A stretch of 64,000 nt of DNA from Longimicrobium sp. (GTDB lineage Bacteria; Gemmatimonadota; Gemmatimonadetes; Longimicrobiales; Longimicrobiaceae): the NCBI GenBank assembly GCA_036389795.1, contig DASVWD010000053.1, positions 1-64,000 on the forward strand, read 5' to 3'. Numbering within the stretch: position 1 is the first letter of the stretch; the number at the start of each line of letters is the position of its first letter. Positions 39,564 through 47,300 of the stretch are shown piece by piece. A model generated the notes under the pieces. That model was not told the DNA's origin and made no database searches. It saw only the letters and a program-made list of their open reading frames with translations. The translations under genes and the position numbers were made by a program.

Positions 39564-42218
39564 TCAGCCCCGCGTCCCCGACGTTCGCGCCTGCGGACGC
39601 GCGGCCACGGCCGCCGGAATCGCGCGCTGCTCCGTCGCCAGCATCAGCTTCCAGCTCTCGATCGGCGTCCCCTGCGTGCGCAGCCGGCTGGCGAGGAAGG
39701 CCAGGCGCCGCGTCTCGGCGCAGTCGCCGGGGAACGCGCCGCAGCGGATGCCGAAGCGCTGCGCCAGGTAGTACGGCGGGATCGCCTGGTAGTAGAGCGT
39801 CGCCCGCACGCTCATGGCCCCGCGGACGCGCGAGAGCGGGATGCGGTACACCAGCCGGTCTGCGCCGCCCCGGTTCCAGTAGTCCGCGTCGCGGGCGGAC
39901 TCGCCGTGCGGCTGCGTCTCGTGCCAGAACGGGCCGCCGCGCCGCCACCCGCGCGGCTGCAGCCGGTTCTCCTTCACCACGCTGTCCAGCGCCAGGAAGC
40001 TGGTGGTCAGCCACCCCTCCGGGTCGGCCACCAGCTCCTCGTAGATCTGCACCTGGTCTTCGCGGGTGATCGTCTCGTGGTGCGGCTGGTAGACGCCGCC
40101 CGCGGCAGCCGGCCGGGTGAAGAACTCCGTGGCGAGCGGCTGGCTCGACGTGCCCCGCACGATCACCCCCAGCCGGTCGGTGCGCCCCGACGCCCACAGC
40201 GTGCCCTGCCCGCCCGTGACCACGAGCTCCAGGAAGGCGCGCCGGAAGCCCACCCCCGAGGGGAGCCGGTGCCCGGCCAGGTTCTCCACCCGCACCGACA
40301 CCTCCAGCGAGTCGCGCACCCTGCGCACGCCCTCCACGCGCACCCGCGCCGCCTGCTCGCGCGCCAGCGCGAGCGCCGAGAGGCCGGCGTTCACCAGCGG
40401 CTGCACGCCGGCCGAGTACATGTAGTCGGTGCTGCGGATCCCCAGCGTGTCGGGGAACTGCTGGAACATCGCCAGCGTGAAGAGGTTCACCCCCATCAGC
40501 ATGTGCCGGCTGAAGGTGTCGCGCACCGCCACGGTGATGGCGCTGTCGCGGGCGCGGTGGTCGGCCATGGGGTAGGTGGGGTCCTCGATGATCGCCACCC
40601 GGTAGCGCAGCCGGTCGCCGCGGAAGTCCTGCGGCATGTGGCAGCTCTGGCAGGTGCGCGCGCTGTCCCGGTCGAACGGGGGGATCTCGTCCTGGTAGAC
40701 GCTGTTCAGCCACTCGGGGTAGGTGGCCTGCTCGTAGTCGGTCTTGATCTGCCGCCCCTGGCGGTCCAGCACCGGGAGCACCACGGTGTGGCAGCTGCCG
40801 CAGAGCGCGCTGGTGCGGATCTGCGGCGCGCCGCGCGGGGTGATCCCCAGCGCGTTCTTCATCGGCAGCTCGATCACGGTGTCGTACGGCCCGTTCACGT
40901 GCCCCGGCGGGTCCACCGGGAAGCGGCCGGTGAAGGTGGCGGTGTCGCCGGGGGCGATGGCCGAGACCTGGTGGCACGCCATGCAGCTGATCCCGTCGCG
41001 GGCCAGCGCGCCGTACTTCGCGCCCGGCTCCCCCGGCCCGGCGTAGACCATGTCGTGGCGGAACATGGTCCCGTCCAGCTTCGCCTGGCGCTGGCCCATC
41101 ACCCCGTGGCAGCGGTAGCAGGTGGTGTCGATGAAGGTGCGCAGGTCGGGGAAGCGCGCCACCTCGCTCTCGCGCTGGGCGTGGAAGACGGGGTCGCGCC
41201 CGGCGAGGCCCATCAGCGACGCGCGCCATTCGCCGTACGGCGACAGGTTGAAGGTGTCGCGTCCGCCGGCGGTGATGAGCGCCATGTTGAAGGTGGAGGC
41301 CGAGTGGCAGCCGGTGCACTGGTCCGAGGTCAGGAACTGCTCCGGCCCGCCCGGCCCCGGCACCACGTGGTCGTACGTCTCCACCGGGAACGCCGTCCTC
41401 GCGTTCGGCGCGGCGAAGTGCCGGGAGATGCGGTACAGCGCCAGGAAGGCGGAGTCCGGCGCCGGGAGCGGCTTCGGCAGCTCGTGGCGCTGCGTCTCGT
41501 TGGCCAGCTCCACCTGCCCGTGCACCGAGAGCGCGTCCCGGCCCGGCGCGCGGGGCGCCTGGGCGGGGGCGGTGGTGAACGTCTGCACCACGAACGAGAG
41601 CGGGTCCTCCCCGGGGTCCACGTTGCGCACCGCGGCGAAGGTCAGCTCGCTCTCGGCCGAGGCGTGGCAGCGCACGCAGTAGAGCCCGAAGCCCGACGAC
41701 GGGTAGTCGATCGGCCGCGCCGGCGGGTCGGCCACGCCGCGGTAGCCCCAGTACCAGCCGTCGAGCGCCCCGGCCGAGTCCCTCACCATCGTGGTCCACC
41801 CCTCCAGCTTCGCCCCGGGCGCGGCGGGCGGGGTGTACATCTCCTTGACGATGATGGCGTTGTCGTCGATGCGGCCCTGGCGGCGGCGCGCCGTCATCCA
41901 CTCCCACGCGCGCGGCGAGTAGTAGACGCGCACCGCCGGGTGCGTCCCGAAGTTCCTGCCGTCGATGAACGGCCCCGTGTTGCGGACCAGGGAGTCGTGC
42001 ACCCAGCCACGGTAGCACCGCCCCTCCAGGAAGGCGTTCAGCAGCCCCTCGTACGCCTGCTCGCCCACGGAGCTGGGGAGCGGGAGCGAGTCGGGGCAGG
42101 CGGGCGCGCCGGCGGCCAGCGCGGTGCCGGCGCGGCCGCCCGGCGCCAGCGCGGCGCAGAGGAGGACGGTCGCCGCGAGGGTCGCGGCGGAGAATTGCAC
42201 TTCACGGCGGCGCGTCAT
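39564..42218 (-). CDS. Secreted multiheme c-type cytochrome (six CxxCH)
   Basis: 884 aa. An N-terminal signal peptide (about 10-36, LAATVLLCAALAPGGRAGTA) is followed by six heme-binding CxxCH motifs: CVRCH near 179, CTGCH near 297, CYRCH near 366, CMACH near 411, CGSCH near 472 and CQSCH near 522. The first has the context of a cytochrome P460-like domain (LDGWYWGYRGVA, YPSSGFGLYC). The last 300 residues are heme-free beta-rich sequence. It is a periplasmic or surface electron-transfer protein; the partner is not visible. Other cytochromes of this group often sit alone too. Lacks a membrane anchor after the signal peptide. Confidence 0.88.
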   Translation of the reverse strand: MTRRREVQFSAATLAATVLLCAALAPGGRAGTALAAGAPACPDSLPLPSSVGEQAYEGLLNAFLEGRCYRGWVHDSLVRNTGPFIDGRNFGTHPAVRVYYSPRAWEWMTARRRQGRIDDNAIIVKEMYTPPAAPGAKLEGWTTMVRDSAGALDGWYWGYRGVADPPARPIDYPSSGFGLYCVRCHASAESELTFAAVRNVDPGEDPLSFVVQTFTTAPAQAPRAPGRDALSVHGQVELANETQRHELPKPLPAPDSAFLALYRISRHFAAPNARTAFPVETYDHVVPGPGGPEQFLTSDQCTGCHSASTFNMALITAGGRDTFNLSPYGEWRASLMGLAGRDPVFHAQRESEVARFPDLRTFIDTTCYRCHGVMGQRQAKLDGTMFRHDMVYAGPGEPGAKYGALARDGISCMACHQVSAIAPGDTATFTGRFPVDPPGHVNGPYDTVIELPMKNALGITPRGAPQIRTSALCGSCHTVVLPVLDRQGRQIKTDYEQATYPEWLNSVYQDEIPPFDRDSARTCQSCHMPQDFRGDRLRYRVAIIEDPTYPMADHRARDSAITVAVRDTFSRHMLMGVNLFTLAMFQQFPDTLGIRSTDYMYSAGVQPLVNAGLSALALAREQAARVRVEGVRRVRDSLEVSVRVENLAGHRLPSGVGFRRAFLELVVTGGQGTLWASGRTDRLGVIVRGTSSQPLATEFFTRPAAAGGVYQPHHETITREDQVQIYEELVADPEGWLTTSFLALDSVVKENRLQPRGWRRGGPFWHETQPHGESARDADYWNRGGADRLVYRIPLSRVRGAMSVRATLYYQAIPPYYLAQRFGIRCGAFPGDCAETRRLAFLASRLRTQGTPIESWKLMLATEQRAIPAAVAARPQARTSGTRG

Positions 42219-43167: not shown

Positions 43168-44862
<1,695 letters not shown>

Positions 44863-44898
44863 GCCGGTCGGTCCCGACGGACCGGTAGGACCCCACGG

Positions 44899-45262: not shown

Positions 45263-45520
45263 ATGAAGAAGCTGTCGCTCAGCCTGGACGAGCTGCGCGT
45301 GGACTCGTTCCAGACCACGCCCGCGGAGCCGGAGTCCAGGGGCACCGTGATCGGCCAGCAGTGCACCTGCGTCACGGCCTGCACGTGCCCCGGGTGCCCC
45401 ACCTGCGACAACACCTGTCCCAACACCTGCGCCTACACCTGTGACGACAACACCTGCATCAGCTGCGCGAACACCTGCGCCAACACCGGTTGCACCCGGT
45501 ATCAGATCTGTTACGAGTGA
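45263..45520 (+). CDS. Cys/Thr-rich RiPP-like precursor peptide, copy P1
   Basis: 85 aa with GGGAGGA upstream of ATG 45263. Leader MKKLSLSLDELRVDSFQT, then a variable stretch ending ESRGTVIG, then a core with 14 Cys, mostly as TC, NTC or xTC (PTCDNTCPNTCAYTC). The leader pattern MKxxLxxxxLxVxxF followed by RGTV is shared with the two minus-strand peptides at 46800 and 47094. It resembles pinensin-type lanthipeptide precursors and other leader-core RiPPs known from Bacteroidota and Gemmatimonadota. Thr-Cys density fits (methyl)lanthionine or disulfide-rich products. No LanB, LanC or LanM gene is within 15 kb on either side, so a modifying enzyme is either elsewhere or none. Confidence 0.75.
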   Translation: MKKLSLSLDELRVDSFQTTPAEPESRGTVIGQQCTCVTACTCPGCPTCDNTCPNTCAYTCDDNTCISCANTCANTGCTRYQICYE

Positions 45521-45649
45521 GGCGCTGAGGGACTCTGCCGGACGGTGACGCTCCCCGGGTGCGGTCCCGGCGGACGAACCGCGGCTCGCCCATGGGTCCA
45601 GCCGGGCCGGCACACGCGAGATCGCGTCCTCCACCGAGCGGGCAGCGTT

Positions 45650-45800
45650 GTCGAGCACGGCGGCGGCGTGGCGCTGCCGCGCTGCCGGGCGAGCCCGAGG
45701 GAGTTCCCCGCTCACCACCGGGAGCGTGCCGGTGGAGAAGCCGGAGAAGGAGAATGCGCCCGCCATGCCGGGCGGCGGCGGCATGGGCGACATGTACTGA
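45650..45800 (+). pseudogene. Internally deleted groEL fragment
   Basis: 45650-45710 matches groEL around 44456-44515 (GGCGGCGGCGTGGCGCTG and flanking bases), then the sequence jumps directly to 44771-44862, ending in a near-identical CATGGGCGACATGTACTGA. Roughly 260 bp of groEL are missing in between and reading frames are broken. It is non-functional. The rest of 45521-46087 has no other gene. The precursor P1 lies between groEL and this fragment. Confidence 0.88.
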
Positions 45801-45839
45801 GATCGTCCGGTCCGCGGACCGCCTGATCCGAGGCGGGAC

Positions 45840-45869
45840 GGCCCGCTCCCTCGCTCGAGGGGGCGGGCC
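45840..45869 (+). terminator. Strong hairpin downstream of the groEL fragment
   Basis: GGCCCGCTCCCTC pairs with GAGGGGGCGGGCC with a four-base loop; related to 46691-46730. Confidence 0.6.
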
Positions 45870-46087
45870 GCGTGCACTGTCGCGGTACGAGTCACGTGTC
45901 TCATGTCAATCCAGGGCAGGATGGCTCGAAGCCCGGCAAACCCTGCCGGCGCCGTCGATCCTGGCATGGCATGCCTCGTGATCGAGCGTCGGGTCGCGCC
46001 GGCGGTTCCGGCGTGGACTGGCCCTTCGCCCACCCCGAAGAGCTGTCGAGAGCGGGCCAAGGGCCCATTCCACAGCCGGAGGTGAAG

Positions 46088-46615
46088 ATGCGACACGCCT
46101 TCCTCACCCTCGCCATCGTCCCCGCGATGGCGCTTCTCGCGGGCTGCGACGACATGAACGGCGCGACGGCGAGCATCCAGCTGCACGACGACTGCGACCC
46201 CGCGACCTTCAACGCCGCGCTCGGCGCCGGCACCTGCCTGCATCCCTCCGGCAGCACCGGGATGACGCTGGCGAGCTTCAACGCGGAGCTGAACGCGACG
46301 CACAGGGTCGCGGCCTGGAGGATCGAGCCGGCCAGCTTCAGCATCCGGGAGGGGACGACGCTCCCGGTGGTGAACACCGGCGGGGAGACGCACACCTTCA
46401 CGGAGGTGGAGGCTTTCGGGGGCGGGGTGGTGCCGGCGCTCAACCAGGCGTCGGGGAACCTCACGGTGGCGCCCGAATGCGCCAACCAGGCCGAGTTCGC
46501 CAGCTCCACCGTGCTGTCCGGGCAGACGGTGCAGCACACCTTCGACGAGACGGGGACGGAGAGGTACCAGTGCTGCATCCACCCCTGGATGCGGCAGACG
46601 GTGACGGTCCGCTGA
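46088..46615 (+). CDS. Cupredoxin-fold lipoprotein
   Basis: 175 aa. MRHAFLTLAIVPAMALLAGC is a lipoprotein signal peptide (Cys20). The mature part contains NTGGETHTFTEVEAFGGG (the first Cu ligand His) and YQCCIHPWMRQTVTV at the C-terminus (Cys, His, Met ligands), a type-1 copper site as in plastocyanin/azurin. Cys pair ECANQAEF and CCIHPW is unusual. Periplasmic or outer-membrane electron carrier. It lies among the peptide genes; a redox role in their maturation is speculation. Confidence 0.85.
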   Translation: MRHAFLTLAIVPAMALLAGCDDMNGATASIQLHDDCDPATFNAALGAGTCLHPSGSTGMTLASFNAELNATHRVAAWRIEPASFSIREGTTLPVVNTGGETHTFTEVEAFGGGVVPALNQASGNLTVAPECANQAEFASSTVLSGQTVQHTFDETGTERYQCCIHPWMRQTVTVR

Positions 46616-46690
46616 GAGTCGGGACGGCGCCTGATCAGAGCGCTCGACAACCCCTGAATCGTACTGGGCGGGGTTTGCCGAGCGCGCGAC

Positions 46691-46730
46691 GAGCGGCCCC
46701 GCTCCCTCGCACGAGGGGGCGGGGCCGCTC
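46691..46730. terminator. Bidirectional hairpin between convergent genes
   Basis: GAGCGGCCCCGCTCCCTC pairs with its complement with a GCAC loop and TTCT after it. Between the cupredoxin stop and P2. Confidence 0.8.
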
Positions 46731-46757
46731 TTCTGACCCGAGGTCTGGCGCGGCGAT

Positions 46758-46787
46758 CCGCTTCCCCGCGCGTTCGCGGGGAAACGG
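46758..46787 (-). terminator. Terminator downstream of P2
   Basis: CCGCTTCCCCGCG pairs with CGCGGGGAAACGG. It is 13 bp past the P2 stop on the minus strand. Confidence 0.65.
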
Positions 46788-46799
46788 ACCGGGCCGGGT

Positions 46800-47018
46800 T
46801 CACATGCAGCAGTCGTACGTTTCGACGCAGCTTCCCCAGCACGACAGGCCGCAGGTGTCCACGCAGCTCGCCTCGGGGATGCACGACCACTCGCCGGAGA
46901 AGCAGTTGGGCGGCCGCGAGCCCTCGTTCGCCCGCACCGTGCCGCGCCGCGTCTCGGGCCTGCGCGTGGTCTCGAAGGTGTCCACCCGCAGCTCTTCCAC
47001 CTTCAGCCTGAGCTTCAT
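46800..47018 (-). CDS. Cys-rich RiPP-like precursor peptide, copy P2
   Basis: 72 aa from ATG 47018 with AGGAGAG upstream. Leader MKLRLKVEELRVDTFETT, then a variable part RPETRRGTVRANEGSR, then a core with eight Cys (NCFSGEWSCIPEASC, VDTCGLSCWGSC, YDCCM). The leader aligns with P1 and P3 at Met-Lys, Leu, Leu-x-Val and Phe; RGTV is shared. The core differs from P1 and has a Trp and a C-terminal Cys-Cys. It lies 75 bp after P3 in the same orientation, so probably one transcript. Confidence 0.72.
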   Translation of the reverse strand: MKLRLKVEELRVDTFETTRRPETRRGTVRANEGSRPPNCFSGEWSCIPEASCVDTCGLSCWGSCVETYDCCM

Positions 47019-47093
47019 CGCGAGCTCTCCTGAGATCGGGTTGCTTCTCGAGCCGCTACCCGGCGGCCCGAGGCGGCGCGGCACCGGCCGGAG

Positions 47094-47300
47094 CTACTGG
47101 GGGCACTGCGTCTCGGGGTAGCCGCACGAGTACACGAACACCGTTTCTCCGCACGCGTCCACCGGACAGCTCTCCTGGCACATCGTCGCCACCCGCGACG
47201 GCCTGGCGAAGCCGCGCACGGTCCCGCGCGCGGGCGCGGCGTCCTCCGAAACCACGAACGTCTCCACGCTCAGGTCGTCGATCTTCAGCTTGTGCTTCAT
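47094..47300 (-). CDS. Cys-rich RiPP-like precursor peptide, copy P3
   Basis: 68 aa from ATG 47300 with GAGAGAGAT upstream. Leader MKHKLKIDDLSVETFVVS, then PARGTVRGFARPSRV, then a core with five Cys (CQESCPVDACGETVF, YSCGYPETQC). The same leader and RGTV pattern as P1 and P2 with a third core type. First gene of a probable P3-P2 unit; a perfect TATAAT lies about 100 nt upstream. Confidence 0.72.
   Translation of the reverse strand: MKHKLKIDDLSVETFVVSEDAAPARGTVRGFARPSRVATMCQESCPVDACGETVFVYSCGYPETQCPQ

Follow-up and report, generated by a model that had tools for sequence, protein, structure and literature searches.

Three short Cys-rich peptides (P1, P2, and P3) encoded within a 64,000-nucleotide stretch of a Longimicrobium sp. 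genome, the whole of which is referred to here as the window, are very likely precursors belonging to a class I lanthipeptide system of the pinensin type, whose genome-scattered substrates share one trans-acting enzyme set. This conclusion is drawn without product, mass, or expression data. In the mechanism that we propose, one enzyme set would recognize the leader common to all substrates (KLxLxLDxLxVESF...GTV), and we infer that P1, P2, and P3 are all modified by this single set. A split LanB, consisting of a glutamylation protein and a separate elimination protein, would dehydrate Ser and Thr residues, and LanC would then add Cys thiols to form (methyl)lanthionine rings, in a pattern that is itself inferred. 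A TglI-like, RRE-fold domain at the C-terminus of LanC would probably hold the leader, a putative subtilisin-like protease would cleave it off close to GTV, at a site that is inferred, and the product would, by inference, be secreted by a LanT ABC exporter together with its HlyD adaptor. We lean only modestly towards the fuller proposal that the split LanB/LanC set modifies ~150 scattered precursors, with the help of a TglI-like domain that is fused to the cyclase and recruits the leader.

P1 (45263–45520, + strand) is an 85 amino acid protein comprising the leader MKKLSLSLDELRVDSFQTTPAEPESRGTV, which by alignment and HMM extends up to the GTV motif (45263–45349, + strand), and a 14-Cys core with TCxxTC repeats. 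P2 (46800–47018, − strand; 72 amino acids) has an 8-Cys core and P3 (47094–47300, − strand, ATG at 47300; 68 amino acids) a 5-Cys core. An ORF check bore out the positions and Cys counts given for these genes in the initial annotation, and all three were picked by a codon-usage gene caller trained on this genome, while a Pfam search of the three peptides returned no match. P3 and P2 probably form one operon, since a gap of 75 nt separates P3 from P2, which follows downstream on the same strand. The shared leader pattern (MK-x-L-x4-L-x-V-x2-F) described in the same annotation was equally sound: its six-frame matches in the window are exactly P1, P2, and P3, with none in 50 codon-shuffled windows, and RGTV follows at residues 26–29 in P1 and 25–28 in P2 and P3.

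A 177 amino acid lipoprotein (46082–46615, + strand) lies between P1 and P2. Its earlier labeling as a cupredoxin is less secure than its position, as the match to the copper-binding plastocyanin/azurin family is borderline (E = 7e-4, just under the Pfam cut-off), and there is no evidence that it belongs to the precursor system. Just downstream of P1 (window positions 45650–45821) the 3′-end of groEL is present as a second, decayed copy, consisting of 57 bp with 84% identity to 44458–44514 and 116 bp with 88% identity to 44769–44884, with an internal deletion; P1 is thus flanked by intact groEL and a groEL remnant.

We searched the 7.5 Mb assembly (285 contigs, estimated contamination 3.75%) for further copies of the leader. 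The NCBIfam pinensin leader model gave 117 matches at a loose threshold, an iterated leader model built from P1–P3 identified 138 distinct ORFs on 56 contigs, and a second genome search added 15 ORFs. Counting only members of ≤150 amino acids with ≥2 Cys, the family comprises at least 152 precursors at 76 loci on 65 contigs – a lower bound, because the genome was sampled by searches and the second of these scored 150 of 405 candidates. The leader matches of P1, P2, and P3 have E-values of 9.6e-16, 5.7e-14, and 6.2e-12, and no leader match was found in 624 kb of reversed sequence. Four relatives encode at least 78 (a sister species), 66, 46, and 11 leader matches. An LxLD-like motif occurs in 152 of 153 precursors; LxLD is among the known variants of FxLD, the recognition motif of class I lanthipeptides (PMC12710340). 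RGTV, which had been put forward as the second shared motif, applies to P1–P3, but the element that is constant family-wide is GTV (130 of 153).

Most loci (53 of 76) are singletons and the largest arrays contain 13 genes. We therefore weighed the possibility that most scattered copies are unexpressed relics of amplification and that the real substrates are only those beside a transporter or LanC; the decayed groEL copy beside P1 indicates that duplications do leave debris in this genome. We nonetheless consider this explanation unlikely. A Shine-Dalgarno-like motif occurs 4–18 nt upstream of 95% of family starts versus 12% for other upstream stretches, and mean identity is 0.53 among leaders versus 0.27 among cores and 0.22 among shuffled cores, implying that translation and the leader are under selection throughout the set. 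Neither a convincing shared promoter motif (only some enriched short words upstream of precursors) nor a specific recurrent neighbor of precursor loci (only common families such as response regulators, dehydrogenases, and ABC transporters) was found.

The proposed kinship with pinensins is supported, with limits. The leader matches the leader_pinensin model (NF038180) and no other lanthipeptide leader model. At 14.1 and 14.8 bits, P1 and P3 fall below its 24-bit cut-off and P2 has no match; a minority of the other genomic copies are at or above the cut-off and most are below. We thus regard P1–P3 as homologues rather than formal members of the pinensin family (Chitinophaga pinensis; family I 17 of Walker 2020). 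A split LanB is common to both systems, as is a LanC closer to the LanC domain of LanM, reported for pinensins (PMC7268733) and observed here (TIGR03897, E = 1e-69). The Longimicrobium system differs in having ~150 substrates in one genome, leaders ending in GTV (those of Bacteroidota in our analysis end in Gly-Gly), and a subtilase with an exporter that lacks a C39 domain.

Consistent with the earlier observation that no LanB, LanC, LanM, or transporter gene is near P1–P3, none appears in the window gene list. That annotation had reasoned that the modifying enzyme might be distant and shared, and that the RiPP idea would fail if homologues lacked a conserved leader or the genome lacked an enzyme. 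Leader conservation is described above, and the enzymes are present. A system of class I requires a LanB dehydratase and a LanC cyclase, and contig C225 encodes both: the only LanB of the genome, split into a 1077 amino acid glutamylation protein and a separate 350 amino acid elimination protein, is directly followed by a 681 amino acid LanC, beside parA/parB. The supporting domain matches are PF04738 (E = 3.5e-46), PF14028 (E = 5.5e-41), and PF05147 (E = 4.2e-49), with one PF14028 and one PF04738. LanC residues His224, Cys309-His310, and Cys356-His357, which we take to be the equivalents of the NisC zinc and catalytic residues, are invariant in six orthologues. Further neighbors of the C225 set cannot be seen because the contig ends just after LanC. 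Genes for LanT, an HlyD-like adaptor, and a subtilisin-like (S8) protease adjoin a 13-precursor array on a separate contig (C206), and P1–P3 are contiguous with neither set.

Relatives provide the missing linkage. In one (G224), LanB, LanC, exporter, HlyD, and protease genes are contiguous in the same parAB neighborhood, and two precursor genes separate LanC from the exporter. Leader genes adjoin LanB-elimination or LanC genes in five more (G032, G243, G169, G167, and G068), so that linkage of leader-bearing Ser/Thr/Cys-core precursors to LanB/LanC, also required of class I systems, is met in six relatives, though not for P1–P3 themselves. The LanB of G169 is fused rather than split. In a set of 249 Gemmatimonadota genomes the leader was found in 7 of the 14 that are LanB-positive and in none of the 235 that are LanB-negative (hypergeometric 3e-10, phylogeny ignored); few of these co-occurrences are independent, because five of the seven leader-positive genomes belong to one family. 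These linkages support the suggestion that P1–P3 belong to a RiPP precursor family, while modification of P1–P3 themselves remains unproven.

The genome encodes two other candidate enzyme sets. Two LanM genes lie amid many small GG-leader peptide genes in a separate class II cluster (C28:5000-24999, L039). On contig C285 (L040:9896-13594), a LanC-like protein, a HopA1-family protein, and a third, apparently kinase-like protein without a Pfam match are encoded side by side, as in class V lanthipeptide sets; this set adjoins large ORFs that contain GDPASPPGTTLLSGYPGASE-type repeats. Both sets are intact and could in principle act on some of the peptides, and LanM is also present in five of the seven leader-positive genomes. 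That P1–P3 are RiPP precursors modified by one of these sets is nevertheless very unlikely in our judgment. The GG-type leaders around the LanMs are unrelated to that of P1–P3, and the P1–P3 leader adjoins LanB/LanC in six relatives. The co-occurrence pattern does not support LanM as the partner enzyme: two of the genomes with the leader (G167 and G169) gave no LanM match, and in seven genomes with LanM the leader was not matched.

We next consider the cores. Across 136 of them, Ser or Thr immediately precedes Cys at a frequency of 0.50 versus ~0.20 expected (z = 26) and occupies position −5 at 0.42 versus 0.20 (z = 18.7), a spacing signal that was repeated in three other genomes. Cys is itself over-represented at +4 and −4 of Cys, and in cases with a Cys at −4, Ser/Thr occupies −5 in 83% and −1 in 67%, giving [ST]Cxx[ST]C repeats. 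These statistics favor rings closed by thioethers, in many cases between residue i and Cys i+5, with topology undetermined; ring patterns cannot be predicted because possible donors outnumber Cys in many cores. Cys counts are even in 70 cores and odd in 66, which argues against disulfide-only folds. The very high Cys content and the copper-protein-like gene between P1 and P2 would suit metallothionein-like or defensin-like peptides that bind metal or form disulfides and merely share a targeting sequence, but we give this idea hardly any credence, as no leader contains a Sec-like hydrophobic stretch, odd and even Cys numbers are equally common, the Ser/Thr spacing is far above chance, and the leader is strictly associated with LanB.

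Only 2 of 66 cores in the relative G032 have a counterpart here at 60% identity: a precursor resident in the enzyme/exporter cluster and a member of the P1 subfamily. The P1 core start (GEQCTC..CTCPGCPTC) occurs in five copies here, four in G032, and two in G180. Most cores therefore turn over fast, with P1 in a conserved minority. The earlier description of three different cores is accurate in that P1, P2, and P3 diverge, but the P1 core is not unique to its gene, since it belongs to a subfamily shared with these two sister species. With a mean net charge of −4 the cores are acidic, which sets them apart from cationic antibiotics. Fast turnover and acidity suggest a diversified secreted repertoire rather than one cationic antibiotic; the role of the products is unknown. 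The core of one precursor (L083:3179-3466; C14:27178) consists of exact tandem repeats (VSGGGATQCGGVQTCGGGCQ), which suggests repeat duplication as a route of core growth.

How a lanthionine cyclase might find scattered substrates could be explained by ~240 residues that follow the cyclase domain of LanC. The same extension is present in LanCs from Acidobacteriota, Ignavibacteria, Aminicenantes, Chloroflexi, and Bacteroidota, several of them beside leader peptides. An AlphaFold (AF2) model of this C-terminal domain built from 17 homologues (pLDDT 88) begins with a helical part, after which come beta-strands and three helices. Among PDB structures, Foldseek ranked two TglHI entries highest (E = 6.7e-5 and 9.3e-5), with a chain length that fits TglI, followed by the RRE with the TbiB1 leader (TMt 0.70) and then PqqD; a model from five sequences (pLDDT 81) gave the same top match. 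TglI, of 3-thiaglutamate biosynthesis, is described as combining a novel helical domain with an RRE, as having no known structural homologue, and as the recruitment subunit of TglHI, which depends on an FxLD-type motif in the leader (PMC9016710, PMC10880893). The likeness rests on the predicted fold – a helical domain and then an RRE – because a sequence search of the LanC domain against the PDB gave no match, and it is only fold-level because the whole-domain Foldseek TM is ~0.4. The long beta1-beta2 loop of TglI is apparently also present in the LanC model. In contrast to TglI, which is a stand-alone protein that partners a DUF692 oxidase, the LanC domain is part of the same polypeptide as a lanthionine cyclase. 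Judging from this model, the domain probably holds the leader through its RRE fold, a function that is inferred, and could thereby recruit the cyclase to its scattered substrates.

In its organization the system resembles the prochlorosins and synechococsins (ProcM/ProcA and SyncM/SyncA), in which a single trans-acting set serves numerous dispersed precursors that have a common leader but vary in their cores. Those systems comprise up to 79–83 precursors for one LanM, the largest number in the open-access literature searched (PMC10783134, PMC9872173). With one LanB set and at least 152 precursors at 76 loci, the dispersal feature is met with about twice as many substrates. The Longimicrobium peptides are not prochlorosins proper, which combine Nif11 leaders with the class II enzyme ProcM; here a class I LanB/LanC is paired with a pinensin-type leader, and the LanMs of this genome are accompanied by different leaders.

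Three or four lanthipeptide clusters have been reported in Longimicrobium terrae. Within the open-access literature, we found no description of a cyclase fused to a TglI-like domain and, in full-text searches, none of such a precursor expansion in Gemmatimonadota. If our proposal is correct, no single lanthipeptide machinery in that literature has a larger natural set of substrates, and the system would be a class I counterpart of the prochlorosins and hence a new promiscuous enzyme set for peptide libraries. A LanC that carries a recruitment domain would provide a testable explanation of how such an enzyme reaches substrates dispersed over a genome, and usual cluster-based mining would find the LanB locus and miss most of its precursors.

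Elsewhere in the window (39564–42200, − strand), a gene encodes a secreted 878 amino acid protein with multiple CxxCH motifs, a probable multihaem cytochrome with a P460-like part.
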